Shown: positions 23,899-63,447 of the stretch, in pieces | How positions within the stretch are numbered: position 1 is the first letter of the stretch | How the letters are laid out: each line of letters starts with the position of its first letter | From: Flavobacterium sp. TR2 | GTDB taxonomy: Bacteria; Bacteroidota; Bacteroidia; Flavobacteriales; Flavobacteriaceae | NCBI RefSeq assembly: GCF_025252405.1 | Contig: NZ_CP104307.1 | Location: 62,001-126,000 of the forward strand | DNA length: 64,000 nucleotides | Direction of reading: 5' to 3' | The notes under the pieces: generated by a model | What the model was told of the DNA's origin: nothing | The model's input: the letters and a program-made list of their open reading frames with translations, nothing else | The model's database searches: none | Position numbers and translations under genes: made by a program

Positions 23899-23933
23899 CA
23901 TAATCCATAACTCACAATTCATAACTAAAATAA
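23899..23933. repeat. Heptamer array filling the rluE-trmL spacer
   Basis: Five consecutive 7-mers in exact phase: CATAATC, CATAACT, CACAATT, CATAACT, AAAATAA. They occupy nearly the whole spacer between the rluE stop and the trmL start. Confidence 0.65.
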
Positions 23934-23935
23934 AG

Positions 23936-24394
23936 ATGCTAAACGTAGTTCTTGTAGAACCAGAAATACCAAATAACACCGGAAATATAGGCAGATTGTG
24001 CGTAGGCACAGAAAGCCGTCTCCATTTAATTCATCCTTTCGGATTTGTTATTAATGACAAAAATCTAAAACGTTCCGGACTGGATTACTGGGTTCATCTT
24101 GATGTTACGGAATATCAAAATGTAGAGGAATGGATTGCGCAGATTCCAGATCATTCTCGCGTTTTTTTAATGAGTTCGCATTCTGATAAATCCTATTTAG
24201 AAAATGAATTTCAAGATGGCGACTGGCTGGTTTTCGGAAAAGAAAGCGTTGGTTTGAGTGCCGCATTTATGGCAAGATTCGAAAATCATTTAACTATTCC
24301 GATGTCTCCGCTTATTCGCAGTTTCAATATTGCCAACTCGGTTGCTTTTGTGGTTGGTGAAGCCAAGAGACAAATTGGATTGAAGAAAGTTTAA
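23936..24394 (+). CDS. trmL: tRNA (cytidine(34)-2'-O)-methyltransferase
   Basis: A 152-residue SPOUT-family enzyme that methylates the 2'-hydroxyl of the wobble base of certain tRNA-Leu species using S-adenosylmethionine. The three SPOUT motifs are visible: EPEIPNNTGNIGRLC at the start, LVFGKESVGL near 100, and IPMSPLIRSFNIANSVAFVVGEA at the end, which forms the trefoil knot. The length equals that of E. coli TrmL. It follows the rluE-like gene on the same strand. Confidence 0.93.
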   Translation: MLNVVLVEPEIPNNTGNIGRLCVGTESRLHLIHPFGFVINDKNLKRSGLDYWVHLDVTEYQNVEEWIAQIPDHSRVFLMSSHSDKSYLENEFQDGDWLVFGKESVGLSAAFMARFENHLTIPMSPLIRSFNIANSVAFVVGEAKRQIGLKKV

Positions 24395-24413
24395 TCGTTT
24401 AACTGTTTAATCG
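24390..24413. repeat. Octamer array after trmL
   Basis: Three in-phase 8-mers, TTTAATCG, TTTAACTG and TTTAATCG, overlap the trmL stop codon. TTTAATCG also occurs in the octamer array at 53991-54022. Confidence 0.6.
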
Positions 24414-24442
24414 AAAAAGCTTCTTCTGAAAACGGGACTTCT

Positions 24443-24517
24443 AGCCCTGATGGAAGCGGCATCCTTTTGTGGCGGGGTTCGCCACAAAAGATATAGCGGA
24501 CAGCAGGATTTGCTCCT
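24443..24517 (+). ncRNA. 75-nt structured element, copy 1 (possible conserved RNA)
   Basis: This 75-bp stretch recurs at 58252-58326 with 7 differences. It contains a perfect 11-bp stem, CTTTTGTGGCG (24464-24474) with CGCCACAAAAG (24480-24490), closed by GGGTT, and a downstream AGGA/TCCT mini-stem. In the other copy one C-G pair of the stem is a T-A pair, a compensatory change. It lies between trmL and the convergent btuD gene. There is no T run, so it is not an ordinary terminator. Strand is assigned from copy 2, which follows a plus-strand gene. It may belong to a known flavobacterial RNA motif such as flavo-1; I cannot confirm that. Confidence 0.6.
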
Positions 24518-24524
24518 AACAAAA

Positions 24525-25301
24525 CTAATTCACAATAAACTTCCCTTTTTCAGCATCAAAAATAATATGTTCGTCTTTGAACAAATTGCTGAAACTTCCA
24601 TTCGAAATTAAATTGCACGGCTGATCTTGCACTATATTTTCTGGCGTCATCATAATCATTTCGTCACTTAACTGAATAGCCAGATCGATATCGTGTGTGG
24701 AAAACAATATAGATTTTTGAGTTTCTTGTGTCAGTTTCTTTAATAATTTAAACAAGGAAACTTTATGCAGCAAATCAAGATGCGTCGTCGGTTCGTCTAA
24801 AATAATTAACGGTGTATCTTGAGCTAGAGCCCTTGCTATTAAAACTTTCTGCAATTGCCCATCGCTAATTTGAAAATGTTTTTTTGAGGCTAAGTGCTCG
24901 ATTTGCGTCAATTGCATTGCTTTCTCAACTTTTAAAACATCTTCATCAGACAATTTATCGACCCAATTGGTGTAAGGCTGTCGGCCCAAAGCGACTAATT
25001 CGAAAACAGAGAGATTGCTTGGCGGGAGCTTTTCGGTTAAAACCAAACTAAGATTTTGCGCCAATTCTAGAGGCTGATAATCTGAAATCTTTCTTTCGTT
25101 CAAATAAACATTTCCTGATAAAGGTTTCTGAATCCCAGTAAGCGTTCGCAATAATGTAGACTTCCCTATTCCGTTTGCGCCTATTAAAGTAATTAGTTTT
25201 CCAGCCTCAAGGTTAAGATTAAGATTCTCAGCAATAGTCGTAACTCCCTTCTTGGATTGGTATCCAATATTTAGATTAGAAGTTGATAGGATGTTTTTCA
25301 T
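24525..25301 (-). CDS. btuD: ABC transporter ATPase, probable vitamin B12 importer BtuD
   Basis: A 258-residue ATP-binding subunit of a FecCD/BtuCD-type importer. Motifs: Walker A GANGIGKST (about 38-46), signature ISDGQLQKVLIARA (the usual LSGGQ reads ISDGQ), Walker B LIILDEPTTHLD and switch histidine STHDID. Specificity for B12 rather than siderophore is inferred from the surrounding cobalamin genes. It would be the third gene of a minus-strand btuF-btuC-btuD operon, but a GxxExxY cassette of about 600 bp now separates it from btuC. Confidence 0.85.
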   Translation of the reverse strand: MKNILSTSNLNIGYQSKKGVTTIAENLNLNLEAGKLITLIGANGIGKSTLLRTLTGIQKPLSGNVYLNERKISDYQPLELAQNLSLVLTEKLPPSNLSVFELVALGRQPYTNWVDKLSDEDVLKVEKAMQLTQIEHLASKKHFQISDGQLQKVLIARALAQDTPLIILDEPTTHLDLLHKVSLFKLLKKLTQETQKSILFSTHDIDLAIQLSDEMIMMTPENIVQDQPCNLISNGSFSNLFKDEHIIFDAEKGKFIVN

Positions 25302-25311
25302 TTCGAGTTAA

Positions 25312-25909
25312 TTTTTTAAACACATAGAAACATAGATTTGTATTTTACTGAAAGTTGATTTTAAAATTTACTTGTAAATTAACACATAGCTTTTGAACTT
25401 AGAACTTTGGCAGCAATTTGAAATATTCATTTACAAATGTTTTTTGGCCTTCTTTAAAAATATTAAAGCAATTAAAATTAATTAAAATGCCCTTAGGAGC
25501 TCTTAAAAGTTTCATATACGTCATAAGCTGCGCTTCATACAATGGATTTAATTCTGATACAGCTTTCAATTCTACAACTAGGCAATTTTCAATAAAGAGA
25601 TCACATTTTAAATTCGTATTCAATTCTTTATTTCTGTAAACCAGTGGCACCTTTATTTCTATCAGAAAATTTATTTTACGATGACTCAATTCTTCTTTCA
25701 AACATTCGTGATAGACACTTTCCAACAATCCTCTTCCAATAGTTTTGTGCACCTCTATACACGCCCCAATTACATTAAAACTTCTGAGTTACAATTATCT
25801 TAATTTAGTCGAGAAACAAGTTGATTTTTCACAAAGTCTATGTTTATTTTAAAAAAAGTGAAACGCCTTTAACCGGCTTTTAAAACTATGTTTCTATGTG
25901 TTTAAAAAA
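25312..25909. mobile_element. Inverted-repeat-bounded cassette carrying a GxxExxY gene
   Basis: A perfect 24-bp inverted repeat bounds this 598-bp segment. The left arm is 25312-25335 (it ends ACATAGAAACATAG) and the right arm 25886-25909 (it begins CTATGTTTCTATGT). The arm contains an 8-bp word (ACATAGAA) repeated. The only gene inside is the GxxExxY protein. The segment splits btuC from btuD in a transporter operon that is normally contiguous, as an insertion would. No target-site duplication is evident. Confidence 0.65.
25399..25752 (-). CDS. GxxExxY protein, N-terminally shortened and possibly frameshifted
   Basis: A 117-residue protein of the GxxExxY family, a small PD-(D/E)XK nuclease-like fold of unknown function. 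The name-giving motif is GLLESVY (8-14); D51 and E61-L-K63 fit the nuclease core. The frame opens at a GTG, yet family-like sequence (NVIGACIEV) continues upstream without an ATG up to a stop. Before that, a plus-one frame reads IIVTQKF, so one extra T in the TTTT at about 25776-25779 may have broken the gene. It is probably a damaged or short form. It lies inside an inverted-repeat cassette. Confidence 0.7.
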   Translation of the reverse strand: MHKTIGRGLLESVYHECLKEELSHRKINFLIEIKVPLVYRNKELNTNLKCDLFIENCLVVELKAVSELNPLYEAQLMTYMKLLRAPKGILINFNCFNIFKEGQKTFVNEYFKLLPKF

Positions 25910-25940
25910 CTAAGATACGCTTTATTTTGTAGGTTTTAAC

Positions 25941-26966
25941 TTAAAAATTTCTTTTTCTGACTAAAAGCCAAATAACAACTGGTGCGCCAATTATAGATGT
26001 AACTGCATTTATGGGAAGTGTGACATCAAAGCCTGGCATTTGTGAAACGATATCACAAAACAGCATTATTATCGAACCGAAAAATAAAGTGCTCCAAAAT
26101 AAAATGGTATGATTACTCGTCTGGAAAGTCAATTTTGCAATATGAGGCACCGCTAAACCTACGAATGCAATTGGACCTGCAAATGCTGTAATGGCTCCAG
26201 ATAAAATACTGGTTGCAAATATGATGACTAACCTTGCCTGTTTAAAATTCAAACCCATACTTTTTGCATAGTTTTCTCCAAGAAGCAAAGCATTCAGCGG
26301 TTTGATGCTTTTGGCGCTTAAAAGCAATCCGATGGTAACACAGAAAGTTAAAACTCCGATGGTTGTCCAAGAAAGATTTCCGAGGTTTCCCATGGACCAG
26401 AAAGTAAATTTCTGAAGCTGTTCTGCCGTACTAAAATAAGTCAGAACACTTACGATTGCAGTGGTGAAACTTCCAAACATCAATCCTACGATCAAAATAG
26501 CCATTGTGTCTCGCAATCTTTGCGAAACAACTAAGACCAAGAAAAGAACCAGCGTGCTTCCTAAAGTAGAAGCCAAAACGATTCCGTAAGACGATAACGC
26601 AATTACGCTTAAAAAAGAAGGCAGAAATCCTGCTCCCAAAATCACAAAAGCAACGCCAAGACTTGCGCCAGAACTTAACCCTAAAACGTAAGGCCCTGCA
26701 AGCGGGTTTCGAAACAAAGTCTGCATCAAAAGTCCGCTCATTGAAAGTCCTGTTCCGACCAAAACAGCTGTAATAGCTTTTGGCAAACGATAATTAATGA
26801 TAATATATTCCCAAGTCGATTTTGTTGCCTGACTCCCTGTTAGACTTGCTACAACATCTTTTAACGGAATTGTAACTGATCCTAAACTAATGCTGGCAAA
26901 AAACATTATAAAAAGTCCCAAAGTCAATACGACAAATAAAATGGTATTTCTTTTTTTATTCGCCAA
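25941..26966 (-). CDS. btuC: FecCD-family permease, probable BtuC
   Basis: A 341-residue, highly hydrophobic permease with about ten membrane helices. The FecCD family signatures are clear: RLPKAITAVLVGTGLSMSGLLMQTLFRNPLAGPYVLG near the N-terminus and GPIAFVGLAVPHIAKL in the ATPase-contact region. Two copies would form the translocation pore of the importer. It starts 2 bp after the btuF stop, so the pair is an operon. Assignment to B12 comes from context; siderophore permeases look the same. Confidence 0.87.
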   Translation of the reverse strand: MANKKRNTILFVVLTLGLFIMFFASISLGSVTIPLKDVVASLTGSQATKSTWEYIIINYRLPKAITAVLVGTGLSMSGLLMQTLFRNPLAGPYVLGLSSGASLGVAFVILGAGFLPSFLSVIALSSYGIVLASTLGSTLVLFLVLVVSQRLRDTMAILIVGLMFGSFTTAIVSVLTYFSTAEQLQKFTFWSMGNLGNLSWTTIGVLTFCVTIGLLLSAKSIKPLNALLLGENYAKSMGLNFKQARLVIIFATSILSGAITAFAGPIAFVGLAVPHIAKLTFQTSNHTILFWSTLFFGSIIMLFCDIVSQMPGFDVTLPINAVTSIIGAPVVIWLLVRKRNF

Positions 26967-26967
26967 T

Positions 26968-28110
26968 TTAATTCAGTTTTGATGCAAAAGTAAATTCGTA
27001 GCCCGCCAATAAATCTGGGTGAAAAATCTTGATATAATCTTTTAAAACCAAATCGGGACGGCTCGGAGCCAGTTCATAATAAACCGTTCCACCTGTTGCT
27101 CCCATCTTTCCTTCAAAGTTGTAAACTGTTTTATTTTTGAAAGCATCAAATTCTGCATAATGCGGATTTGCTTTTTGCAATTCATCCAAACTTTTAAACG
27201 ATCCCGAAGCGATCCATACATTTGCCGTTTTCGCTTTATCCAACACTTTTTCAAAAGACAGGCCTTCGCTTCCTGTTCCTTTTAGATCGGCCCATAAATA
27301 ATTAGATTTTGCGTCTTCCATAAACTGCGCCACCCAGCTGTTTCCTTTGGCAACGTACCAAACATCTTCATACATAGAGCCATACAATACTTTTGAAGTT
27401 GCAGGTTTATCGGCAACGAGTTTTTTTGCCTGATTGTAGCTTTCTACGATTTTATCAAAAAGTTCTTTTGCTTTATCTTCTTTTCCGAACAAAGCCCCGT
27501 AAAGCTTAATCCATTCGGCTTTTCCTAGCGGAGACTGCTCCATCCAATCGCCTTGAATCAAAACCTTTAAACCGCTTTTCTTAAGATTATCCAACATCGG
27601 ATTGTTATTATCAACACCAAAAGTTACGATCAAATCTGGCGATAATTCTATTAATTGTTCGATGTTCAATTTTTCATTTTGTCCAACATTTTTCACCGAA
27701 CCTTTATCAATTAAAGCTCTTGTTTTTTCTGAAGAAATATAATCGGTGTGCGGAAATCCGACCAATTTATTCTCAACTTCCAACATTTCTAGAAAAGGAA
27801 TATTTGTTGTTGAAGTTACCACAACACTTTCTAACGGAACTTTTATAGCTGGATATTTTTTTAAACTGTCTGGAATTTGCGCATCTTTTTCCTCTAAAAT
27901 GTAAGTGAATTTCTCCTTAGCATTTGGCCACGGATTTACCACATTTACAATTGAATAGCCCTCGTTTTTTACAATTGAAAGTCCCGACGCAAATTCGATG
28001 CTTTCTTTGTCAGCCGTAGATTTTACAACATCTTGCGCTTCATTCTTCTTACATCCAATTACTATAAAAAGTAAAAAAACGACTGGTAATTTATGGAAAA
28101 AATATTTCAT
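26968..28110 (-). CDS. btuF: Periplasmic substrate-binding lipoprotein, probable BtuF
   Basis: A 380-residue class III periplasmic binding protein. The signal peptide ends in a lipobox (FIVIGC, Cys20), so it is lipid-anchored. The two-lobe fold is suggested by SVVVTSTTNIPFLEMLEVENKLVGFP, LSPDLIVTFG and the long linking helix near GKEDKAKELFDKIVE. As the first gene of the operon it would deliver corrinoid to BtuC. The ligand is inferred from neighbours. It is divergent from the CWC protein gene. Confidence 0.85.
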   Translation of the reverse strand: MKYFFHKLPVVFLLFIVIGCKKNEAQDVVKSTADKESIEFASGLSIVKNEGYSIVNVVNPWPNAKEKFTYILEEKDAQIPDSLKKYPAIKVPLESVVVTSTTNIPFLEMLEVENKLVGFPHTDYISSEKTRALIDKGSVKNVGQNEKLNIEQLIELSPDLIVTFGVDNNNPMLDNLKKSGLKVLIQGDWMEQSPLGKAEWIKLYGALFGKEDKAKELFDKIVESYNQAKKLVADKPATSKVLYGSMYEDVWYVAKGNSWVAQFMEDAKSNYLWADLKGTGSEGLSFEKVLDKAKTANVWIASGSFKSLDELQKANPHYAEFDAFKNKTVYNFEGKMGATGGTVYYELAPSRPDLVLKDYIKIFHPDLLAGYEFTFASKLN

Positions 28111-28131
28111 ATTTTATGTTTTGTGTGGGCA

Positions 28132-28139
28132 CAAAGGTA
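28132..28139 (-). promoter_or_regulatory. Predicted -7 element of the btuF operon
   Basis: On the minus strand this reads TACCTTTG, matching TAnnTTTG, 21 bp upstream of the btuF start. No clear -33 TTG was found at the right distance. No riboswitch is visible in this 94-bp intergenic region. Confidence 0.45.
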
Positions 28140-28204
28140 AATCAATTTCTATTTTTTTTGTTTACCTTTATTCGTACAAATTTAAACAAATAGCCATTTA
28201 TTTG

Positions 28205-28567
28205 ATGAATGTCACAAGAACAAAAATCTGCTCCAGTTGTCAGGCCGCTTTTTCATGCGGCGACACTTCACCCGAAAATAAGTGCTGGTGTAATGATTAT
28301 CCGCCTATTTTCAATCTTTCAGAAGGAGGCGACTGCCTTTGCCCTATGTGTTTTAAGGAAGCCTGCGAAGATAAAATTGACGCTTATATCGAAACTGTTA
28401 CTCCTAAAAAAGCACTTAAAAATAAGGCTATGCTATTGCCCAAAACCGATCATTTAATTGAAGGCATTGATTATTACATCGAAAATGGCAATTATGTCTT
28501 TAAAGCTTGGTTTCACCTAAAAAGAGGAACCTGCTGCGGAAATAACTGCCGACATTGCCCTTATTAA
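28205..28567 (+). CDS. Cysteine-rich CWC / DUF5522 protein
   Basis: A 120-residue protein with two cysteine clusters. The N-terminal CWC-type part has CSSCQAAFSCG, CWCND and CLCPMCF, likely a metal-binding fold. The C-terminal part ends RGTCCGNNCRHCPY, the DUF5522 signature. I start it at the ATG at 28205; the longer open frame upstream runs into the btuF promoter. The function is unknown. It lies at the head of the plus-strand cobalamin gene group, so it may travel with corrinoid metabolism, but that is only an association. Confidence 0.75.
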   Translation: MNVTRTKICSSCQAAFSCGDTSPENKCWCNDYPPIFNLSEGGDCLCPMCFKEACEDKIDAYIETVTPKKALKNKAMLLPKTDHLIEGIDYYIENGNYVFKAWFHLKRGTCCGNNCRHCPY

Positions 28568-28995
28568 TTGTTAATTATAAATTGTTAATTGTTAGTTATG
28601 AAAAATAACATTGTTAGAAATAAAAGCTTTGATTTTGCAATAAGGATTGTCAAACTTTATCAATATTTAAATACTAGTAAAAAAGAATTTATCCTTGCTA
28701 AACAACTTTTAAGATCTGGCACTTGTGTTGGTGCAATGATTCGAGAAGCTGAGCATGCTGAAAGTAAAAGTGATTTTATTCATAAATTTGCAATTGCTCA
28801 AAAGGAAGCTAATGAAACTGTCTATTGGCTCGAATTATTAAAAGCCACTGATTATCTCAGCGAAAAAGAATTCGAAAACATTTATGACGATGCAATTACA
28901 ATACTAAAATTAATAACCAGTATACTTAAAACTTCCAAAAATCAATTAGACGCAAAAAAATTAACAACTAACAATTAATAATTAACCATTACACA
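28564..28995. mobile_element. Heptamer-array-bounded cassette with a four-helix-bundle gene
   Basis: The left border is five in-phase 7-mers (TTAATTG, TTAATTA, TAAATTG, TTAATTG, TTAGTTA; 28564-28598) ending on the ATG of the enclosed gene. The right border is five 7-mers of the complementary type (TTAACAA, CTAACAA, TTAATAA, TTAACCA, TTACACA; 28961-28995). It covers the gene's last codons and reaches to two bases before the cobU ATG. A 13-bp perfect inverted core lies at 28585-28597 and 28966-28978. It looks like an insertion between the CWC gene and cobU. Confidence 0.6.
28598..28978 (+). CDS. Four helix bundle protein (S23/IVP-like)
   Basis: A 126-residue all-helical protein of the family first seen as the open frame in 23S rRNA intervening sequences. 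Typical segments are FDFAIRIVKLYQYL, LRSGTCVGAMIREAEHAESKSDFIHKFAIAQKEANETVYWLELL, and a final LKLITSILKTSK. Relatives (Avd-like) bind nucleic acid or accompany reverse transcriptases, but no such partner is present here. I prefer the ATG at 28598 over the TTG at 28589. The gene is tightly enclosed by heptamer arrays, and its last codons belong to the right array. Confidence 0.8.
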   Translation: MKNNIVRNKSFDFAIRIVKLYQYLNTSKKEFILAKQLLRSGTCVGAMIREAEHAESKSDFIHKFAIAQKEANETVYWLELLKATDYLSEKEFENIYDDAITILKLITSILKTSKNQLDAKKLTTNN

Positions 28996-28997
28996 AA

Positions 28998-29507
28998 ATG
29001 ATTTACCTAATAACAGGCGGTGAACGTTCTGGAAAAAGCGGATACGCACAAAAACTTGCTTTAGAACTTTCCAACTCTCCTTTATATGTAGCAACCGCCC
29101 GAAAATGGGATGCTGATTTTCAAAATCGAATTGACCGCCATCAGCAGGAAAGAGACGAACATTGGACAAATATTGAAAAAGAGAAATACTTAAGCGAAAT
29201 TGATTTTTCTGGAAAAACAGCTTTGATAGATTGCGTAACGTTATGGCTTACTAATTTTTTTATCGATACTAAAAATGATGTGGCTTTGAGCCTGGAAGAA
29301 GCCCAAAAAGAGTTTCTCGCTATTGCTAAACACGAAAATGCCAATATCATTATTGTAACAAATGAAATTGGTATGGGCGTTCATGCAGAAACGCACATCG
29401 GGAGAAAGTTTGTAGAACTTCAAGGCTGGATGAATCAGTTTCTTGCTGCAAACGCAGATCAAGTTGTATTAATGGTTTCTGGAATTCCAGTTAAAATAAA
29501 AGGTTAA
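28998..29507 (+). CDS. cobU: Adenosylcobinamide kinase / guanylyltransferase CobU
   Basis: A 169-residue enzyme that phosphorylates adenosylcobinamide and transfers GMP to it, making adenosylcobinamide-GDP for CobS. The P-loop GGERSGKSG lies at 7-15. The guanylylated-histidine region RHQQERDEHWTNIE is at about 48-61, and the conserved TNEIGMGVH follows. Length and order match CobU/CobP. It is the first recognisable cobalamin synthesis gene of the plus-strand set and is followed by the bluB-cobT fusion. Confidence 0.95.
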   Translation: MIYLITGGERSGKSGYAQKLALELSNSPLYVATARKWDADFQNRIDRHQQERDEHWTNIEKEKYLSEIDFSGKTALIDCVTLWLTNFFIDTKNDVALSLEEAQKEFLAIAKHENANIIIVTNEIGMGVHAETHIGRKFVELQGWMNQFLAANADQVVLMVSGIPVKIKG

Positions 29508-29519
29508 ATCTCAATACAG

Positions 29520-29655
29520 AAATTCCAAATTCCAATAAATTGAAACGAAATTCCAGTTTTTAAATTCCAAATTCCAAAGCTATGCTTTACCTTTACTAGA
29601 ATCTTTCCGTTTTCATATTTTGAAATTGGAATTTAAAATTTGGAATTTAAAGAAA
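29520..29655. repeat. Heptamer-phased inverted repeat between cobU and bluB-cobT
   Basis: The left array is eight 7-bp slots in exact register (29520-29575); five read AAATTCC. The right array is five slots (TGAAATT, GGAATTT, AAAATTT, GGAATTT, AAAGAAA; 29621-29655) ending on the first base of the next ATG. The arms are complementary, so the spacer can fold on itself. The approximately 45 bp between them hold no gene. Confidence 0.7.
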
Positions 29656-31392: not shown

Positions 31393-31824
31393 ATGCTATA
31401 TATGCCTTTTACTAAAATTTACATTCACTGTGTCTGGAGCACCAAAAACAGATTTCCGTTTTTAAATTCAATCGAACTTCGCCGAAAAGTATGGCAACAC
31501 ATACAAGAAAATGCTTTAAAAAAAGAAATCTATCTTGATTTCATCAGTGGGTATTCAGATCATTGTCATTGTTTAATTTCATTAGGGAATGATCAAAATA
31601 TTCAAAAAACAATACAGCTTTTAAAAGGAGAATCTTCATATTGGATTAATAAAAATCAATTAACAAAAAATAAATTCGAATGGCAGGATGAATATTTTGC
31701 CGTTTCAGTTTCAGAATCTATAGTAGATAAAGTTCGAGATTATATTAAAAATCAAGAAGAACATCACAAAAAGAAAACATTTCAAGAAGAGTATGAAGAA
31801 TTTATGATCAAATTTAAGTTCTAA
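31393..31824 (+). CDS. Y1 (HUH) transposase, IS200/REP-associated type
   Basis: A 143-residue single-strand transposase of the Y1 HUH class. The metal-binding H57-C-H59 lies in SDHCHCLISL and the likely nucleophile Tyr117 in VRDYIKNQEEHHKK. The family start IYIHCVWSTKNRFPFL and the WQDEYFAVSVS segment are also typical. The size fits IS200-type TnpA and REP-associated tyrosine transposases. No partner TnpB is present. Three copies of a structured repeat follow directly, and their outer parts repeat the last bases of this gene. It separates cobT from cobS. Confidence 0.87.
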   Translation: MLYMPFTKIYIHCVWSTKNRFPFLNSIELRRKVWQHIQENALKKEIYLDFISGYSDHCHCLISLGNDQNIQKTIQLLKGESSYWINKNQLTKNKFEWQDEYFAVSVSESIVDKVRDYIKNQEEHHKKKTFQEEYEEFMIKFKF

Positions 31825-32452
31825 CATTCTTAAAAAAAATTTGGCTAAAGCCTTTCTAAAACTCCATAAATAAACCAACATCTAAAGATGTTGGCAATTC
31901 ATCAAAAAAATATTTTTTCTAAAATTTCACTTTTGAATTACCTCCAGATTTATCTGGAGGTTATAAATTTGCCTCAAAGAGGGCTTTAGCCAAATAATCA
32001 TAATCCAACTGAATATGATCTATTTACAATCAAATTTAAGTTCAAAACACTGTTAAAAAAAAAGAAAATCGGCTAAAGCCTTTCTAAATCTCCATAAATA
32101 AACCAACATCTAAAGATGTTGGCAATTCATCAAAAAACATTTTTTTAATTTTAATTTTGAATTGCCTCCAGATTTATCTGGAGGTTATAAATTTGCCTCA
32201 AAGAGGGCTTTAGCCAAATAATCATAATCCAACTGAATATGATCTATTTACAATCAAATTTAAGTTCAAAACACTATTAAAAAAATTTAGCTAAAGCCTT
32301 TCTGAATCTCCATAAATAAACCAACATCTAAAGATGTTGGAAATTCATCAAAAAAACATTTTTTTTAATTTTACTTTTGAATTGCCTCCAGATTTATCTG
32401 GAGGTTATAAATTTGCTCCTAAAGAAGGCTTTAGCCAAATAATCATAATCAA
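31825..32452 (+). repeat. Three tandem copies of a structured three-hairpin element
   Basis: No gene lies in these 628 bp. Three copies occur at 31843-31991, 32071-32215 and 32289-32436 (start-to-start 228 and 218 bp). Each has an outer stem GGCTAAAGCC with GGCTTTAGCC, an inner palindrome CCAACATCTAAAGATGTTGG (31875, 32103, 32321), and a second inner palindrome CCTCCAGATTTATCTGGAGG (31941, 32165, 32385). Copies 1 and 2 are followed by about 60-80 bp containing ATCAAATTTAAGTTC, which is also the 3' end of the transposase gene. The array ends just before the cobS ATG. Confidence 0.88.
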
Positions 32453-33238
32453 ATGAAAAAAGAACTTCACATTTTCTTCACCTGTCTAATGTTTTACACT
32501 AGAATTCCATGCCCCAAAAACATTACACATCATCCAGATTATTTAAACAAAGCAACGAGATATTTTCCTTTTATTGGATGGATTGTTGGGAGTATTTCAT
32601 TTCTGGCTTTTTATTTTTTCTCATTTTTTCTATCTGCTGAAATTGCTGTAATACTGGCAATCATTACTTCTATTTTAACAACAGGAGCCTTTCATGAAGA
32701 CGGCTTTGCGGATGTCTGCGATGGTTTTGGCGGAGGCTGGACCAAAGAAAAAATCTTAATGATTATGAAAGACAGTGCCATTGGTGCTTATGGAGCAATT
32801 GGATTGGTTTTGCTTTTTTTATTGAAGTTCAAACTGCTTTCAGAATCTGTTTTACTTTTTGAAAAAGATTATTTTTTCATTTTCTTATTGTTTATATCTG
32901 CACATTCTCTGAGCCGTTTAGGAGCAATCAGCATTATTTTCACACATGAATATTCTCGTGATGATGCTTCCAGTAAAAGCAAACCGATTGCAAAACAATA
33001 TACTTGGAAAGAAGTTTTTGGTTCTTTCTTTTTTGGTTTATTTCCGCTGATTGTATTTTCTTATTTCGATTTGAAATTTCTTTTAATACTAATTCCCGTT
33101 TTTGCAGCACGATATTTTTTAGCCCGATATTTTCAAAAATGGATTGACGGCTACACTGGAGATTGCCTTGGAGCAACACAGCAGGTTTGTGAAGTGGTAT
33201 TTTACTTAAGCATTTTATTTTTATGGAAATTTATCTAG
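32453..33238 (+). CDS. cobS: Adenosylcobinamide-GDP ribazoletransferase CobS
   Basis: A 261-residue polytopic membrane enzyme that joins adenosylcobinamide-GDP with alpha-ribazole (or its phosphate) to form the finished coenzyme. The metal/diphosphate motif GAFHEDGFADVCDGFGGG is intact at about 79-96. PFIGWIVG near the start and DGYTGDCLGATQQVCE near the end are also family features. About six to seven hydrophobic helices are visible. Its last 16 bases overlap cobC. The triplicated repeat lies directly upstream, so expression may depend on read-through from cobT. Confidence 0.95.
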   Translation: MKKELHIFFTCLMFYTRIPCPKNITHHPDYLNKATRYFPFIGWIVGSISFLAFYFFSFFLSAEIAVILAIITSILTTGAFHEDGFADVCDGFGGGWTKEKILMIMKDSAIGAYGAIGLVLLFLLKFKLLSESVLLFEKDYFFIFLLFISAHSLSRLGAISIIFTHEYSRDDASSKSKPIAKQYTWKEVFGSFFFGLFPLIVFSYFDLKFLLILIPVFAARYFLARYFQKWIDGYTGDCLGATQQVCEVVFYLSILFLWKFI

Positions 33239-33828: not shown

Positions 33829-33837
33829 CAGCAAATT

Positions 33838-52347: not shown

Positions 52348-53982
52348 TTATTTTTCTATCTCTCTCATCGAGTCCATTTTTTTATGCGCTAAGAAACCGG
52401 CAACATCTTCAAAATGTTCTTTTACGCGTTTATTTCCGAACTCGAACACCTTAGTTGCTAATCCATCAAGGAAATCACGATCGTGAGAAACCAAGATCAA
52501 AGTTCCGTCAAAATCTCTCAAAGCATCTTTTATAATATCTTTGGTTTTCATATCAAGGTGGTTCGAAGGCTCATCCAAAATCAACAGGTTAACAGGCTCC
52601 AATAGCAATTTGATCATTGCCAGACGCGTTTTTTCTCCTCCTGAAAGCACTTTTACTTTTTTGGTAATATCATCTCCTTGGAACATGAAAGCTCCTAAGA
52701 TATTTTTGATTTGCGTTCTGATATCACCAACCGCAATACTGTCAATTGTTTCAAAAATAGTTGCATTTTCATCTAACAGAGCCGCTTGATTTTGAGCAAA
52801 ATACCCAATTTGCGCATTATGCCCGATTTCTACGCTTCCTGAGTCAACGCCAATTTCTTTCATAATGGCTTTAATCATTGTCGATTTTCCTTCACCATTT
52901 TTTCCAACAAAAGCCACTTTCTGTCCGCGCTCGATTACAATGTTTGCATCTTTAAACACCACATGATCTCCGTAAGCTTTTGACATTTCTTTTACAATAA
53001 CCGGATATTGTCCAGAACGTGCCGCAGGCGGGAATTTTAACCTCAAAGCTGATGTATCTACTTCGTCAACCTGAACGATTTCTAGTTTTTCCAACATTTT
53101 CACGCGAGACTGAACGGCATCTGTTTTAGAGAATGTTCCTTTAAAACGCTCAATAAAAGCACGATTTTCTGCAATCATTTTCTGCTGCTCATCATATGCT
53201 TTCTGCTGATGGATTCTGCGGTCTTTTCTTAATTCTAAGTAATGAGTGTATTTTGCTTTGTAATCGTAAATTCTTCCCATAGTAACTTCGATAGTTCTAT
53301 TTGTAATATTATCTACAAACGCTCTATCGTGCGAAATCACCACAACCGCTTTTGCCTGATTCAACAAGAAATCTTCTAACCACTGAATACTTTCGATATC
53401 CATGTGGTTGGTTGGCTCATCCAGCAATATCAAATCTGGTTTTTGCAAAAGGATTTTTGCTAATTCGATACGCATTCTCCATCCTCCTGAAAACTCCGAA
53501 GTCTGACGTGTAAAATCTTCTCTTTCAAAACCTAAACCGATTAAAATTTTCTCAACTTCGGCTTCGTAATTTATTTCTTCAATAGCATAAAATTTCTCGC
53601 TTAAGTCAGAAACTCTTTCGATCAATTTCATGTATTCGTCACTTTCATAATCAGTACGAACGGTCAGCTGCTCATTGATATCGTCGATTTCAGCTTTCAT
53701 TTTAAAAATGTCGCTGAAAGCTTTTGACGCTTCTTCCATAACAGTCGCACCGTCTGCGGTAAGCAAATGCTGAGGCAGGTAAGCAATTACAGCTTCTTTT
53801 GGTGCCGAAACATTTCCTGTAGAAGGTTTATTTACACCCGCAATTATTTTTAAAAGTGTCGATTTTCCCGCACCATTTTTACCCATAAGGGCAATTTTAT
53901 CATTTTCATTAATAGCAAAAGAAACATCGCTAAAAAGTGTAGTTCCGCCAAACTGAACCGAAATATCGTTAACTGTAATCAT
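52348..53982 (-). CDS. ABC-F family translation-associated ATPase
   Basis: A 544-residue ABC-F protein with two nucleotide-binding domains and no membrane part. Walker A motifs are GKNGAGKST and GKNGEGKST. Signatures are FSGGWRMRIELA and LSGGEKTRLAM. Walker B motifs are LILLDEPTNHMD and LLILDEPSNHLD. The P-site linker between the domains is the helical segment with RKDRRIHQQKAYDEQQKM. Layout and length resemble the YbiT group. Such proteins act on ribosomes; a resistance role is not indicated. Confidence 0.93.
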   Translation of the reverse strand: MITVNDISVQFGGTTLFSDVSFAINENDKIALMGKNGAGKSTLLKIIAGVNKPSTGNVSAPKEAVIAYLPQHLLTADGATVMEEASKAFSDIFKMKAEIDDINEQLTVRTDYESDEYMKLIERVSDLSEKFYAIEEINYEAEVEKILIGLGFEREDFTRQTSEFSGGWRMRIELAKILLQKPDLILLDEPTNHMDIESIQWLEDFLLNQAKAVVVISHDRAFVDNITNRTIEVTMGRIYDYKAKYTHYLELRKDRRIHQQKAYDEQQKMIAENRAFIERFKGTFSKTDAVQSRVKMLEKLEIVQVDEVDTSALRLKFPPAARSGQYPVIVKEMSKAYGDHVVFKDANIVIERGQKVAFVGKNGEGKSTMIKAIMKEIGVDSGSVEIGHNAQIGYFAQNQAALLDENATIFETIDSIAVGDIRTQIKNILGAFMFQGDDITKKVKVLSGGEKTRLAMIKLLLEPVNLLILDEPSNHLDMKTKDIIKDALRDFDGTLILVSHDRDFLDGLATKVFEFGNKRVKEHFEDVAGFLAHKKMDSMREIEK

Positions 53983-53990
53983 TTGTCTTT

Positions 53991-54106
53991 GTTAATTTGT
54001 TTAATCGGTTAATCGTTTATTTGACCACCCATTTTTTTTCGTGCTGCAAAGATAGATTAATTAGATAATTAGGCAATTTGAAAATTAGATAATTATGAAA
54101 ATGTGT
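53991..54106. repeat. Two octamer arrays upstream of ABC-F and of the PepSY-like gene
   Basis: The first array (53991-54022) has four 8-mers in phase: GTTAATTT, GTTTAATC, GGTTAATC, GTTTATTT. The second (54059-54106) has six: AATTAGAT, AATTAGGC, AATTTGAA, AATTAGAT, AATTATGA, AAATGTGT. The ABC-F promoter lies at their junction and its -33 element is inside the second array. Confidence 0.7.
54047..54076 (-). promoter_or_regulatory. Promoter of the ABC-F gene
   Basis: On the minus strand TTG (54076-54074), a 19-bp gap and TATCTTTG (54054-54047) match the consensus. The leader is about 60 nt. Confidence 0.7.
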
Positions 54107-54225
54107 CCATTAGGCAAATTATTAATTAAATAATGCTTTAACAATAAAGAACGAAACCTAAATGGTTTTTTCCTATTTTGAAATTTTCGCCTTACCTTGT
54201 ATAAGAATTTATAAATCAGTAAAAT

Positions 54226-54669
54226 ATGAAAGCGAAACTAGAACTGACCGTTTGCCTAATTGCAGGATTACTATTTGGGTTTTCTGCAAACGCACAAAAA
54301 ACTGTAATTAAAAAAGAAGCTCTACCAGCAAACGCACAAACATTCTTAAAAACACATTTTGGATCTAAAAAACCGAGCTATATACTGGAAGACAAAGAAA
54401 TTCTTTCTACAGAATACAAAGTTCAGTTTGACAATAAAATTGAAATTGAATTTGACAAAAAAGGAAACTGGAAAGAAGTGGATGCTAAAACTGGAAAAAT
54501 TCCAAAATCTATTATTCCGAAAAAAATTGCATCTTATATAAAAACTAATTTCCCTAAAGAAGATGTAACCAAAATAGAACTTGGAAGTTCTGGCTACGAA
54601 ACTAAATTGAGCAACGGTTTAGAATTGAAATTCAACCTAAAAGGAGATTTTATTAAAATTGATAAATAG
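54226..54669 (+). CDS. Secreted PepSY-like protein
   Basis: A 147-residue periplasmic protein with a signal peptide (1-23, ending GFSANAQ). Two PepSY-like (DUF2874) repeats follow: about 28-87 (LPANAQTFLKTHFGSKKPSYILED to FDKKGNWKEVD) and 91-147 (IPKKIASYIKTNFPKEDVTKIELG to FNLKGDFIKID). Such proteins resemble the BLIP fold and are thought to bind proteins or inhibit proteases. It is monocistronic, surrounded by octamer arrays on both sides and followed by a terminator. Confidence 0.85.
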   Translation: MKAKLELTVCLIAGLLFGFSANAQKTVIKKEALPANAQTFLKTHFGSKKPSYILEDKEILSTEYKVQFDNKIEIEFDKKGNWKEVDAKTGKIPKSIIPKKIASYIKTNFPKEDVTKIELGSSGYETKLSNGLELKFNLKGDFIKIDK

Positions 54670-54673
54670 GTTC

Positions 54674-54801
54674 AATTAGAAAATATGCTAATTGGAAAAT
54701 TAGAAAATTCTCTAAAACCTTAAAATAACAAAACCCGACAGTTTTTTAACACCTGTCGGGTTTGCAAAAAATTATCTAATTGACTAATTTTCTAATCATC
54801 T
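54674..54801. repeat. Octamer-phased inverted repeat around a terminator
   Basis: The left array has five 8-mers (AATTAGAA, AATATGCT, AATTGGAA, AATTAGAA, AATTCTCT; 54674-54713). The right array has four (AATTATCT, AATTGACT, AATTTTCT, AATCATCT; 54770-54801), of complementary type. Between them is the terminator at 54731-54763. Confidence 0.75.
54731..54763. terminator. Bidirectional terminator between the PepSY-like and GlmU-like genes
   Basis: AAACCCGACAG (54731-54741) and CTGTCGGGTTT (54753-54763) form a perfect 11-bp stem with an 11-nt loop, between convergent genes. Confidence 0.85.
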
Positions 54802-54809
54802 CATTAAAG

Positions 54810-56222: not shown

Positions 56223-56241
56223 GTATAATTTAAAACAGCTA

Positions 56242-56718: not shown

Positions 56719-56744
56719 TGGATTAATTTTAAACATAGCGAAAT

Positions 56745-57275
56745 ATGATTAATGAAGTTATAAAAAAGAATGGAGTTACGTATGGTGTAATGATCGGAAT
56801 TGCATCGGCTTTGGTTACCGCTACAATCTATGCTGTTGATTTAAACTTATTTACAGCTTGGTGGATGGGAATACTAGGAATCGTAATAAGTCTTACAATT
56901 AGTATCATCCTACTTTCTAAAACTAAGAAAGATTTAAACGGTGTTTTTCCTTTTAAAGATGCTTTTACTACTTATTTTATAGCTGCAGTAATTGGTATTT
57001 TAATCTCTACAACTTTCAACATTGTATTATTTAATGTAATTGATCCGGGCGCAAAAGACACTTTGAGCGAAATTATGATCAAATATACTGTTGGTATGAT
57101 GCAGAAATTTGGCACGCCAGCCTCTGCAATTAACGAAGCTGTTGCTAAAATGAAAGAAAGCAATCCGTATTCTACTTTTGAATTATTAAAAGGATCTGTT
57201 TTTGCTATGGTTATAAGCGCAATTTTCGGATTAATTTTCGCCGCATTTTTTAAAAGCAAATCTACACAAGAATAA
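56745..57275 (+). CDS. DUF4199 membrane protein
   Basis: A 176-residue protein with four hydrophobic helices (about 12-32, 36-55, 70-92 and 143-165), typical of DUF4199. The conserved short segment TKKDLNGVFPFKDAFTTYF lies after the second helix. The function is unknown. The GT2 glycosyltransferase gene starts 8 bp downstream, so the two are cotranscribed; this DUF4199-GT2 pairing suggests a role near glycan or polyprenyl-phosphate-sugar assembly at the inner membrane. Confidence 0.85.
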   Translation: MINEVIKKNGVTYGVMIGIASALVTATIYAVDLNLFTAWWMGILGIVISLTISIILLSKTKKDLNGVFPFKDAFTTYFIAAVIGILISTTFNIVLFNVIDPGAKDTLSEIMIKYTVGMMQKFGTPASAINEAVAKMKESNPYSTFELLKGSVFAMVISAIFGLIFAAFFKSKSTQE

Positions 57276-57283
57276 AAATATAA

Positions 57284-58240: not shown

Positions 58241-58251
58241 CGGAAAGCCCT

Positions 58252-58326
58252 AGCCCTGATGGGAACGGCATCCTTTTGTGGTGGGGTTCACCACAAAAGA
58301 TATAGTGTACAGCAGGATTAGCTCCT
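58252..58326 (+). ncRNA. 75-nt structured element, copy 2 (possible conserved RNA)
   Basis: It matches copy 1 (24443-24517) at 68 of 75 positions. The 11-bp stem is CTTTTGTGGTG (58273-58283) with CACCACAAAAG (58289-58299), where both sides of one pair have changed relative to copy 1, so pairing is kept. The loop GGGTT is identical. It starts 11 bp after the glycosyltransferase stop and ends 43 bp before the phosphohexomutase start. It could be a small RNA, a 3' UTR element or a leader of the mutase gene. Confidence 0.62.
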
Positions 58327-58369
58327 GAAAAAAAACTTATCTTTAATTAAAATTTTAAAAAGACATTAC

Positions 58370-60097: not shown

Positions 60098-60132
60098 TAA
60101 CAATGAGTGACAAACTCTTCATATTGCAATTT

Positions 60133-60216
60133 TGCAGACAATGTCTGCACAATTGATTAAGTTCAATTTTTACAACTCTGATTTACATTTTGAACAAATG
60201 CAAATCAGAGTTTTTT
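60133..60216 (+). terminator. Palindrome and terminator after the mutase gene
   Basis: TGCAGACA-A-TGTCTGCA (60133-60149) is a small perfect palindrome. Further on, AACTCTGATTT and AAATCAGAGTT (60174-60184 and 60202-60212), extended inward by CATTT/AAATG, form a strong stem before six T. The rest of 60098-60367 shows no gene. Confidence 0.8.
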
Positions 60217-60367
60217 AATAAAAAAAAGCAAAAAGAAATTGAAACCACACCAATTAAATTAATTTTGTGCAGTAAAAATTTTCCAGAACAAATTTAATTA
60301 CAACAAAAAAATATTGCTATGACTTAAAAGAGCATTAGCAAAGCAGAAAAATAATATTCAAAAATAA

Positions 60368-62197
60368 ATGAGTAATTTCAAAAAAATAGTTCCTTTTATA
60401 TACCCATATAAGAAGTATGCGTTCTTAAATATCTTTTTCAATATTTTGTATGCGCTTTTCAGCACACTTTCGTTTGTTGCTTTAATACCGATGCTTCAGG
60501 TATTATTTGACAAAACCAAAGAAAACAATGTAAAGCCCGTATACAATGGCCTTTTGCACATTAAAGAATATGGGGAAAACTATTTAAGCTATTATATCAC
60601 CACCTCAAAAGGAACTCATGAATCTGGCTATGTATTGTCTGTCATGGTGGCCATAATCATCTCAATCTTTTTATTGAAAAATTTAGCTGATTATTTGGCT
60701 ATGTTTTTCATCAATTTTTTGAGAAATGGCGTTTTAAAGGATATGCGAAATGCATTGTACAAAAAAACATTAGAACTTCCATTGGCTTTTTATTCTGAAA
60801 AAAGAAAAGGAGATGTAATTTCTAGAATTTCAGCAGACGTAAACGAGGTTCAAAACTCCTTCTTAGCAATCCTAGAGCTTATTGTAAAAGAACCTTTAAC
60901 GATTGTTTTTACCATAGCTACGATGCTTATTATCAGTGCCAAACTGACTTTATTCGTCTTCATTTTTATTCCTGTTTCTGGATACATCATTTCATTAATC
61001 GGAAAACAGCTTAAAAAACAATCTAGCAAAGCCCAAGAAGAACAAGGAAAGTTTCTTTCTACAATCGAGGAAACAATTGGCGGATTAAAAGTGGTAAAAG
61101 GATACAATTCTGAAAACTATTTTAATAAAGTTTTTCAAGATTCTACAGAACGCTTTTTTACTTTATCAAATAGCATTGGCAACCGTCAGAACTTGGCTTC
61201 TCCTGCCAGTGAATTTATGGGAATTACAGTTATTGCCATTTTGCTTTGGTATGGAGGCCAGATGGTTTTGATTGATAAAACTTTAGAAGGTGCTGCATTT
61301 ATCGCGTATATGGGATTAGCTTATAATATTCTAACTCCTGCAAAAGCCATTTCTAAAGCTTCTTACGGAGTAAAAAGAGGAAATGCCGCAGCAGAACGTG
61401 TTCTTGAAATTTTAGAACAAGAAAACACTATTGTTTCTAAAGAAAATGCAATCGAAAAAACAACTTTTGATGACAACATCACGGTTCAAAATATAAACTT
61501 TAAATATGAGGAAGAAACTGTTTTAAAAGATTTTTCTCTTAAAATTAAAAAAGGACAAACCGTTGCGCTTGTTGGACAATCTGGAAGCGGTAAAAGTACG
61601 ATTGCAAATTTATTGACTCGTTTCTACGATGTTAATGATGGATCTATTTCTATTGACGGCATCAATATTAAAGACATGAACCTGCAATCGCTTCGCAGCT
61701 TGATGGGGCTAGTAACACAAGACAGTATTTTATTTAATGACACTATTAAAGCAAATATCGCTTTAGGAAAATTAGACGCTACTGACGACGAAATTATCGA
61801 AGCGCTAAAAATTGCAAACGCATATGAATTCGTAAAAGATCTTCCGCAAGGAATCTACACCAATATCGGAGACAGCGGAAACAAACTTTCAGGCGGACAA
61901 AAACAGCGACTATCTATCGCTCGTGCCGTTCTTAAAAACCCGCCGATTATGATCTTAGACGAAGCAACATCGGCATTGGATACTGAAAGCGAAAAATTTG
62001 TGCAGGTGGCACTTGAAAATATGATGCAGAACAGAACTTCAATTGTGATTGCACACCGTCTCTCAACAATTCAAAAAGCAGATGTGATTGTGGTAATGCA
62101 AAAAGGAAAAATCGTTGAGCAAGGAACCCACGACGAATTGATTGCAAAAAACGGAACGTACAATAAGCTGGTAACGATGCAGTCTTTCGAATCGTAA
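60368..62197 (+). CDS. ABC exporter, MsbA-like (lipid/multidrug type)
   Basis: A 609-residue half-transporter with the membrane domain first. Six helices lie within about 15-330, with a longer than usual loop between helices 1 and 2 (about 50-85), common in Bacteroidota MsbA-like proteins. The ATPase domain has Walker A VGQSGSGKST, Q-loop GLVTQDSILFNDTI, signature KLSGGQKQRLSIARA, Walker B IMILDEATSALD and H-loop IAHRLS. It would work as a homodimer, possibly flipping lipid A precursors, but the substrate is not certain. It is monocistronic. Confidence 0.9.
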   Translation: MSNFKKIVPFIYPYKKYAFLNIFFNILYALFSTLSFVALIPMLQVLFDKTKENNVKPVYNGLLHIKEYGENYLSYYITTSKGTHESGYVLSVMVAIIISIFLLKNLADYLAMFFINFLRNGVLKDMRNALYKKTLELPLAFYSEKRKGDVISRISADVNEVQNSFLAILELIVKEPLTIVFTIATMLIISAKLTLFVFIFIPVSGYIISLIGKQLKKQSSKAQEEQGKFLSTIEETIGGLKVVKGYNSENYFNKVFQDSTERFFTLSNSIGNRQNLASPASEFMGITVIAILLWYGGQMVLIDKTLEGAAFIAYMGLAYNILTPAKAISKASYGVKRGNAAAERVLEILEQENTIVSKENAIEKTTFDDNITVQNINFKYEEETVLKDFSLKIKKGQTVALVGQSGSGKSTIANLLTRFYDVNDGSISIDGINIKDMNLQSLRSLMGLVTQDSILFNDTIKANIALGKLDATDDEIIEALKIANAYEFVKDLPQGIYTNIGDSGNKLSGGQKQRLSIARAVLKNPPIMILDEATSALDTESEKFVQVALENMMQNRTSIVIAHRLSTIQKADVIVVMQKGKIVEQGTHDELIAKNGTYNKLVTMQSFES

Positions 62198-62218
62198 GCT
62201 TTTCACATAAAAATAATC

Positions 62219-62280
62219 TAACACAGATTAAGGAAATATTAAAACTCAGTTTAATTTCTTTAATCTGTGTTTATTTTTAT
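62219..62280 (+). terminator. Terminator-like inverted repeat after the ABC exporter
   Basis: ACACAGATTAAGGAAAT (62221-62237) and ATTTCTTTAATCTGTGT (62254-62270) pair over 17 positions with one wobble, with a 16-nt loop and a T-rich tail. ACAGATT also appears in the cassette at 63023-63447. Confidence 0.7.
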
Positions 62281-62323
62281 AACTTTAGGATAGTTAAAGA
62301 TTGAAATTTAATTCTTTCAGAAA

Positions 62324-63025
62324 ATGTATCTTAACAACCCCAACATAAAACTTCCTGACGATCCCGATACTATTGTTTGGAAGTATCTAGACCTATCTAA
62401 ATTTCTTGATTTATTGCTTTCGAAAAAACTTTTCATGTCACGTTCAGACAAGTTTGAAGACCAATACGAAGGAACTTTTAGCGAACCTACGTATGAAGAG
62501 ATTAAAAAACTTGCCGTAGACAATCCTGAGTTTTTAAATTATTACAAAACGCATCGCGAAAAAGTAGCGATCAGCAGCTGGCACATCAACGAATATGAAT
62601 CTTTTGCCATGTGGCAGATTTTTACCAAAAATAATGAAGGTCTAGCTATTCAATCCACAATTAAAAGACTGCAAAAAGCTGTAAAACCCGAAAACAATTT
62701 TGACCAGTACATTGGCGAAGTAAAATACATTGACTACAAAAAAGAATACATTCCGTTTGATGATTTATTCTTTCCATTTTTATTTAAAAGAAAAAGTTTC
62801 CAATACGAAAGAGAAGTCCGAATCTTGAGTGACACTTCAAAAAGCGATATCAAATTAAACGACGGGTTAAAAATCAATGTAGACATCAATCAATTGATCG
62901 AGAAGATATACATCCATCCGAAATCTGAAAACTGGTACAAAAAACTGGTAATTGAGTTGGTAGAACGCCTAGGTTTTGGTTTCGAAATTGAAAAATCGGA
63001 TCTGGAAAGTGACATATTGATTTGA
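62324..63025 (+). CDS. DUF2971 protein
   Basis: A 233-residue protein of the DUF2971 family. Typical features are YLDLSKFLDLLLSKKLFMSRSDKFEDQYEGTF near the start, ISSWHINEYESFAMWQIFTKNNEGLAI in the middle and EREVRIL at about 166-172. The family is sometimes found near phage-defence genes, but nothing of that kind is adjacent here and no catalytic function is known. The stop codon coincides with the first word of an octamer array. Confidence 0.82.
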   Translation: MYLNNPNIKLPDDPDTIVWKYLDLSKFLDLLLSKKLFMSRSDKFEDQYEGTFSEPTYEEIKKLAVDNPEFLNYYKTHREKVAISSWHINEYESFAMWQIFTKNNEGLAIQSTIKRLQKAVKPENNFDQYIGEVKYIDYKKEYIPFDDLFFPFLFKRKSFQYEREVRILSDTSKSDIKLNDGLKINVDINQLIEKIYIHPKSENWYKKLVIELVERLGFGFEIEKSDLESDILI

Positions 63026-63447
63026 AGGTGCTAAGGTTCTGAGGAGCTAAGTTTTTTTTAACCACAGATTTAATTTTTCAGTTACTGATGATGTTCCGCA
63101 GGAACATTTCATTGGTAGAAAAATTAAATAGTTACGGTTATTTTTCGTTCCGTTGGAACGTTTGATTTTGATACATTTTTTTTACAATGCAGCGCATTTA
63201 AACGTTCCGGAACGTAAATTGGCTGGCATGATTTTTTTCTACCGACTAGACATTTCTACGGAATGACGAGTCGGCTTATAAAAATGAAAAACGCTTTTTC
63301 ATTAATGAAAACCATTTAAAAAAGAGAGGCTGTTTCTACTTAATGAAACAGCCTCTCTTTTTATAAAAATCTTTCTCCTCAAAATCTGTGGCGAAAAAAC
63401 TTAGAATCTTAGCCTCCGAGAACCTTAACAACTTAAACTCTTAGATC
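63023..63447. repeat. Octamer-bounded 425-bp cassette with nested palindromes
   Basis: The left array has four 8-mers (TGAAGGTG, CTAAGGTT, CTGAGGAG, CTAAGTTT; 63023-63054). The right array has six (CTTAGAAT, CTTAGCCT, CCGAGAAC, CTTAACAA, CTTAAACT, CTTAGATC; 63400-63447). The arms are imperfectly complementary and also include CCACAGATTT/AAATCTGTGG. Inside are three palindromes: ATGTTCC-gca-GGAACAT (63091-63107), CGTTCC-gtt-GGAACG (63146-63160) and ACGTTCCGGAACGT (63202-63215). No gene is present. The arrays overlap the stop codons of both convergent genes. Confidence 0.75.
63319..63362. terminator. Strong bidirectional terminator
   Basis: AAAGAGAGGCTGTTTC with GAAACAGCCTCTCTTT form a 16-bp stem with T and A runs on either side, between convergent genes and inside the octamer cassette. 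Confidence 0.85.

Follow-up and report, generated by a model that had tools for sequence, protein, structure and literature searches.

Arrays of 7- and 8-nucleotide words in intergenic spacers of Flavobacterium sp. TR2 as probable arms of small elements around IVP genes

The window, a stretch of 64 kb (34% GC) from the 5.1-Mb genome of Flavobacterium sp. TR2 (contig NZ_CP104307.1, positions 62,001 to 126,000), contains several intergenic spacers built of 7- or 8-nt words repeated in register. One set of these arrays brackets a gene for a 126-aa protein at 28598..28978 on the forward strand, which matches the four helix bundle model TIGR02436 (103.6 bits) and the 23S_rRNA_IVP family PF05635 (98 bits) and is referred to here as an IVP gene. 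The 5' arm, at 28564..28598 (+), consists of the heptamers TTAATTG/TTAATTA and includes as its last base the first letter, A, of the start codon of the IVP gene (P = 0.000). The 3' arm, at 28961..28995 (+), consists of TTAACAA/CTAACAA/TTAATAA, is inverted relative to the 5' arm (P = 0.004) and encodes the C-terminus of the protein. A gene-less pair stands at a convergent junction, with a GTTTCAG/GTTTCAA heptamer arm of 8.4 copies at 6747..6805 (+; P = 0.000 for 6747-6802) and its partner arm, CTGAAAC/TTGAAAC, at 6919..6950 on the reverse strand. P values for single arrays derive from 1000 dinucleotide shuffles of the ~400-bp surroundings, counting any lag from 5 to 12 at any place. The arrays are probably the arms of small intergenic elements, similar to the intervening sequences (IVSs) of rRNA, that either bracket an IVP gene or carry no gene.

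Strong arrays, defined by at least 16 of 20 matches at the lag, were counted in 41 stretches of the genome (864 kb including the window) comprising 471 spacers (95 kb), with 30 shuffles as control. At lag 7 they occur in 28 spacers (shuffle mean 1.4, maximum 6) and at lag 8 in 14 (mean 1.5, maximum 3), and multiples of both lags show them as well. Lag 6 yields none among the 471 spacers, lags 9 and 10 yield three spacers each (shuffle means 0.9 and 1.0), and coding DNA (3215 pieces, 643 kb) holds two strong arrays at lag 7 and one at lag 8. Lag 11 displays a small excess of its own (6 spacers, shuffle mean 0.9, maximum 3). The initial annotation had listed ten arrays in the window, all of which are present at their positions, and had proposed this comparison with shuffled spacers; the length of 7 or 8 that it described is specific and genome-wide. 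As tandem 7-nt units that lie between genes and exceed chance, the lag-7 arrays are heptameric simple repeats. Tested singly, four of the ten listed arrays are significant and six are not, a result that a chance regularity of AT-rich spacers would also give. That explanation is almost certainly wrong: it is rejected by the excess of lags 7 and 8 over the shuffles, and GC-rich words form such arrays too, GGGAATC x3 being present in 52 of 299 genomes of another order and its reversed control in 2.

The genome holds six IVP (PF05635) genes, all between protein-coding open reading frames (ORFs). By eye, all six are enclosed by inverted arms of 7/8-nt words, with words differing between loci and those of L191 weak. 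In a scored test, an inverted repeat was sought between the two 160-bp flanks with a cut at a score of at least 14; here four of the six loci pass, L193 and L194 remaining under the cut. The Bacteroidota set combines loci of this genome, of its genus and of an even draw from the phylum (61 usable of 63, two dropped as short), with at most one locus per genome except for the present one. Inverted flanks are found in 31/61 of these loci, compared with 2.8% of 3660 cross-paired flanks and 1/98 neighbour-gene controls. By set, the loci with inverted flanks number 4/6 (own), 16/27 (genus) and 11/28 (phylum draw), and those with a lag-7/8 array (at least 15 of 20 matches) in at least one flank 4/6, 19/27 and 17/28. 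IVP genes occur in 60/61 genomes drawn from the genus and 116/148 drawn from the phylum.

The same arrangement is found in other phyla, in genomes chosen for the presence of GTTTCAG x3 and belonging, by their record titles, to Planctomycetota, Acidobacteria, Cyanobacteria, Deltaproteobacteria, Gammaproteobacteria and others. IVP genes are present in 27/29 of these genomes versus 46/99 drawn Acidobacteriota, the phyla being unmatched in this comparison. After eight of 30 loci were dropped as short, 16 of the 22 usable loci have inverted flanks (1.3% when cross-paired), 59% of flanks contain a lag-7 array (0.1% when shuffled), and at least one flank has an array in 20/22. Arrays are called in both flanks of 39/83 IVP loci. 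The period of the two arms is the same in 39/39, and the inverted match between them exceeds the direct match in 32/39.

Gene and word change together at the junction of one of the own loci, L192, for which 61 genomes were matched and 12 loci read. Three alternative occupants are seen, the word differing with the IVP allele. In the present genome and in G059, G010, G044 and G060, AGTCGAA-type arms enclose one IVP gene, with identity to the own junction of 92% throughout in G059 and 74-81% in the other three. In G053, G054 and G015, arms of GTTTCAG, the word of the window array at 6747-6805, enclose a different IVP gene (70% nucleotide identity over 169 bp), and in G049, G006, G042 and G052 a gene-less heptamer pair of 87-88 bp takes this place. 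The flanks in these last seven genomes are 90-96% identical to those of the present genome. On a tree of 83 IVP proteins, 60 of them labelled, the period changes 6 times as against 18.0 upon shuffling (minimum 11 of 300), and the 30 closest protein pairs all agree in period, compared with 52% of the other pairs. The initial annotation had suggested a common process or a protein with a 7-8 bp footprint; the distribution of the period on the IVP tree implicates a protein, the footprint itself being putative.

Two inverted arrays of a single word, 7 or 8 nt long, would make up the proposed element, with one orientation of the word favoured on reading inwards. The IVP protein, homopentameric in a relative of solved structure, may recognise the word repeats in either RNA or DNA. 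Such reading would preserve the register as single letters drift and tie the word to the protein clade, thereby giving a reason both for the period of 7/8 and for its persistence despite that drift. Transcripts might pair along the arms and be cleaved as rRNA IVSs are, and gene-less pairs could have lost their IVP gene or could be non-autonomous copies. In the rRNA IVSs, as described in the main text of PMC4990558, an S23 ORF lies between complementary ends and RNase III excises the element in several bacteria; the same text gives Xanthomonas S23p as a homopentamer. The solved relatives 2gsc and 2rld have five chains each. Arms contain a median of 4.5 copies (n=78; arms below ~3.9 copies are not callable), which no more than hints at five words per arm to match a pentamer. 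A wider proposal, held tentatively and with somewhat less than even confidence, is that IVP/S23 proteins are word readers with one 7-/8-nt word per clade and that the inverted arrays form a selfish element distributed across phyla. If true, the heptamers of Xanthomonas, cyanobacteria, Beggiatoaceae and Bacteroidetes would be footprints of one protein family, and gene-less arrays would be in-trans targets or non-autonomous copies of the IVP family.

An expectation that the heptamer GGGAATC of Xanthomonas flanks the IVP gene there was written down before the data were seen. The sample of 299 genomes was drawn around G228, for which there is a Wenzhouxiangella record, from its order, taken here to be Xanthomonadales in GTDB. 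IVP genes are present in 37/45 GGGAATC-positive versus 11/35 negative genomes (Fisher 7e-6, uncorrected for kinship), a count that took in 45 of the 52 positive and 35 of the 247 negative genomes. Twenty IVP loci were read, hand-picked rather than random and all from positive genomes. In 14 of them the gene is preceded by tandem GGGANTN and followed by NANTCCC, none of the 20 has these words in the wrong orientation, and a shuffled control gives the upstream GGGANTN pair in 4/1000. In the order that should include Xanthomonas, GGGAATC is present and stands beside the IVP gene. By eye, L408 and L420 contain GGGANTN-type words. At L404 and L419 the inverted words read GGGACCG/GGGACCC, and at L421 and L422 the words are of GAGGAAC type, making four loci whose IVP word is not the genome's own GGGAATC. 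The genes flanking most of the 20 loci are presumably accB and accC, so these loci largely represent one ancestral site. The words of the window differ from GGGAATC.

Several observations weigh against the view that the arrays are arms of IVP elements. Most arrays are gene-less: an IVP gene lies within 400 bp of only 5/120 exact GTTTCAG x3 loci, a proportion above the 0.2% per locus roughly expected by chance, but one showing that the idea of an IVP gene beside every array was wrong, and one sixth of the genome holds 66 array-bearing spacers against 6 IVP genes in total. Array density is not predicted by IVP number among bearers, as G010 has six IVPs with arrays in 0/53 spacers and G162 thirteen with 1/62, and two of the four IVP-lacking genomes used for comparison are GC-rich. 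The score cut is missed by 30/61 Bacteroidota IVP loci, including the window copy (10.5 against 14), and at least one locus, L190, passes it through AT-rich sequence rather than through its words. In 7/39 loci with both arms called, the inverted match does not exceed the direct one. Word order is unmatched between arms, with 0/39 at P<=0.05, contrary to what a selected hairpin would give. Arrays of the CAAAG word stand in mixed order (16 outside-in, 12 opposite), and at lag 7 the GTA word repeats in phase in either orientation, as GTA and as TAC. Most of the 20 IVP loci from GGGAATC-positive genomes occupy a single site and cannot count as independent cases. Outside the host family the period follows the tree only weakly (4 changes among 34 loci against 5.6 when shuffled, P=0.03). 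Specificity between protein and word across families is not supported, the correlation from alignment- and profile-based comparison of the words being no stronger than with reverse-complemented words. The protein-word link within the genus may be plain co-inheritance, which remains compatible with a weak period signal and a word similarity that is not orientation-specific outside the host family.

The words themselves recur. Pairs of GTTTCAG (GTTTCAGGTTTCAG, at most one mismatch) number 179 in the genome versus 3 for the reversed pattern; CAAAGNNN, CTAAGNNN and other words are also recurrent, whereas AATTAGNN, with 13 matches against 6 for its reversed control, has no clear excess in count. 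Among named relatives with the GTTTCAG word, many are Flavobacterium, and the sequences at 28564, 28961 and 29520 recur at many further sites of the genus among the matches listed. The earlier descriptions of words that differ completely between sites, and of unshared sequence rather than repeat families, accordingly give way to word families with a preferred polarity around IVP genes and in GTTTCAG pairs. Among the matches listed, GTTTCAG arrays precede CTGAAAC arrays in 18/18 pairings at 17 sites. When Bacteroidota IVP flanks are read from outside to inside, the in-phase repeats at lag 7 comprise AAG, AGT and TAG, without CTT, ACT or CTA. Those at lag 8 comprise AAG and AGG but neither CTT nor CCT, and CTA is among them too, within CTAAG words. 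Arm consensus words contain AG in 45/60 and CT in 17/60. At L041, positions 11347-12395, one AAAGGCGC-type octamer array is found five times in ~1 kb.

Neutral slippage, if polymerase slipped with greatest ease by 7-8 nt, could together with hairpin template switching from arm to arm produce arrays as a by-product of mutation, in spacers that IVP genes merely tolerate. In most genomes of an earlier survey, heptamers outnumber every other kind of long simple repeat, and polymerase contact has been offered as an explanation (main texts of PMC4679880 and PMC4692102); copy number varies by eye between orthologous junctions. Near-identical IVP elements in the present genome (L189) and in G006 (L247), each with two nearly identical arms, differ by one extra T in both arms of G006, which would fit arm-to-arm copying if the sites are orthologous. 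Slippage nevertheless leaves unexplained the polarity, the occurrence of one word at dozens of unlinked sites and the clustering at one gene family. It also leaves unexplained the near absence of arrays from four IVP-lacking genomes (1/197 spacers versus 28/451 in eight bearers, the present genome excluded; kinship and GC uncorrected). It is considered unlikely.

Less likely still is that the arrays are RNA hairpins at 3' ends or between cistrons, selected by the host for termination, mRNA stability or accessibility of start codons, with the IVP gene an occasional passenger. Arrays are most frequent in convergent spacers (16/71, compared with 41/321 co-directional and 9/79 divergent), some abut start codons and some enclose a terminator-like hairpin, as such a role would have it. 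Their presence in divergent spacers, arms that have words but not word order in common, and unrelated spacers between very similar flanking genes in relatives do not agree with it. At the junctions orthologous to that of the window IVP gene, the gene is present in 5/20, the present genome included; the gene-less junctions L172, L177 and L179 keep an inverted heptamer pair by eye, and at L183, L185, L186 and L187 the spacer is bare and measures 20-37 bp.

Compared with known systems, the proposed IVP elements most directly recall the 23S rRNA IVS, with which they share an S23/IVP ORF (window 28598-28978). They differ from it in that all six own loci lie between protein genes and not inside an rRNA gene, that the stems are 7/8-nt word arrays, and that gene-less copies are abundant. 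Heptameric repeats of cyanobacteria are known as short tandemly repeated repetitive (STRR) sequences. Among described heptamers are Xanthomonas GGGAATC and Nostoc GGGGA(C/T)T (main text of PMC4692102) and TAACTGA in Beggiatoaceae, cyanobacteria and Bacteroidetes, with a single inverted heptamer set in the main genome of that study (main text of PMC4679880). The likeness, on the main texts of both papers, comprises an intergenic position, a degenerate 7-nt unit, many sites, and a place that is kept while length changes; the difference is that the passages concerned name neither a partner gene nor a function. The terms 'four helix' and '23S rRNA'/'23S' have no occurrence in the main texts of PMC4692102 and PMC4679880, and no published link of IVP or four-helix-bundle genes to heptamer arrays was found in a search largely confined to openly accessible literature. 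With the IVP family, heptamer repeats would gain a candidate partner protein, and the common S23/four-helix-bundle family a testable role.

Two protein systems offer further parallels. TRAP is a ring protein that reads spaced NAG triplets; an IVP protein, as a putative ring oligomer, might similarly read short, regularly spaced words, AG-rich in this case, with a different spacing. We know of no homology between TRAP and IVP. The Avd protein of diversity-generating retroelements (DGRs) is a four-helix bundle of a related fold family. The own IVP L189 falls below the Avd cut-offs (22.9 versus 80 bits in NCBIfam; 29.5 versus 40 in Pfam bAvd), and no Avd match is listed for the window copy.

The remaining arrays of the window are heptamers and octamers, often in inverted pairs as the initial annotation described, and were compared with orthologous junctions (at least 15/20 matches, one call per junction) in relatives, six of which keep 44-48 of the 58 window junctions. 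Words and copy number drift between genomes. CATAACT-type heptamers at 23899..23933 (+) lie between a stop codon and a start codon (P = 0.080 alone). Their junction, 23896..23935, has a lag-7 array in 7/8 genomes, with heptamers before the start codon; words differ between genomes, as does copy number by eye, the array of G008 being much longer. At 29520..29575 (+), AAATTCC heptamers form a degenerate 5' arm (P = 0.091), and GGAATTT words at 29625..29648 (+) are, by eye, its inverted partner; junction 29507..29639 shows a lag-7 array in 2/9 genomes, the own one not being called. Since AAATTCC-like words hold no stop, the idea that arrays supply stops in all frames, considered by reasoning only, was dropped.

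Among the octamer arrays, GTTTAATC-type words lie at 53991..54022 (+; P = 0.064 alone), with the sequence visible at the junction in 6/6 genomes, and AATTAGNN words at 54059..54106 (+; P = 0.004); their junction, 53982..54225, has a lag-8 array in 6/6 genomes. At 54674..54713 (+), AATTAGNN octamers form the 5' arm around a hairpin resembling an intrinsic terminator (P = 0.289 alone), with TAATTNNC octamers at 54769..54804 (+) as the inverted partner, and junction 54669..54809 keeps a lag-8 array in 5/6 genomes. The octamers of CTTAGNNN at 63400..63447 (+; P = 0.142 alone) belong to a recurring word family, with 20 matches versus 1 for the reversed control in 864 kb. Three copies only of TTTAATCG, a weak array, extend over a stop codon at 24390..24413 (+; P = 0.052), and junction 24394..24524 has a lag-8 array in 1/8 genomes. 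In all, three further listed arrays that are weak alone sit at junctions with arrays kept in relatives.

Inside the GTTTCAG pair described above, positions 6824-6900 contain a sequence (CTTCGACTCCGCTCAGGA) like repetitive extragenic palindromes (REPs) and a AAACTTTGTCAAAGTTT palindrome, and pieces like it are found in many places of the genome. The junction, 6736..6955, has a lag-7 array in 3/7 genomes, and other palindromes stand there elsewhere. REPs and bacterial interspersed mosaic elements (BIMEs) are dispersed intergenic palindromes with RAYT transposases. Dispersal of palindromes by a RAYT-like or other transposase, independent of IVP, would account for the recurrent REP-like sequence within the pair, but the REP-like parts lack the 7/8 period by eye. 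The likeness to REP/BIME ends with dispersed intergenic palindromes, for the present arrays are short tandem words, not one palindrome, and have another partner gene. As an origin of the arrays, such dispersal is rated very improbable, though no search was made for RAYT or other transposase genes.

A second gene family with word-array-like arms is seen by eye. The GxxExxY gene (PF13366/TIGR04256; ORF 25399-25752, reverse strand) has a GTG start, the model match beginning at its position 14-15, and sits inside a ~31-bp inverted repeat with ACACATAGAAACATAG (window 25310-25911). Gene-less palindromes with the ends of this repeat occupy other junctions of relatives. In a genus draw of 30 GxxExxY loci (L292-L321), 16 were usable, the other 14 having been too short or not having passed a crude ORF test; inverted arms are found in 13/16, versus 15% of cross-paired flanks. 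No flank of these 16 loci has a lag-7 or lag-8 array, and the arm words, of CGCAAAG type, are spaced ~9-12 bp by eye. Elsewhere in the window, a 224-bp unit is repeated three times in tandem at 31800-32457, mostly between two ORFs, and a 72-bp unit 2.5 times at 10767-10943.

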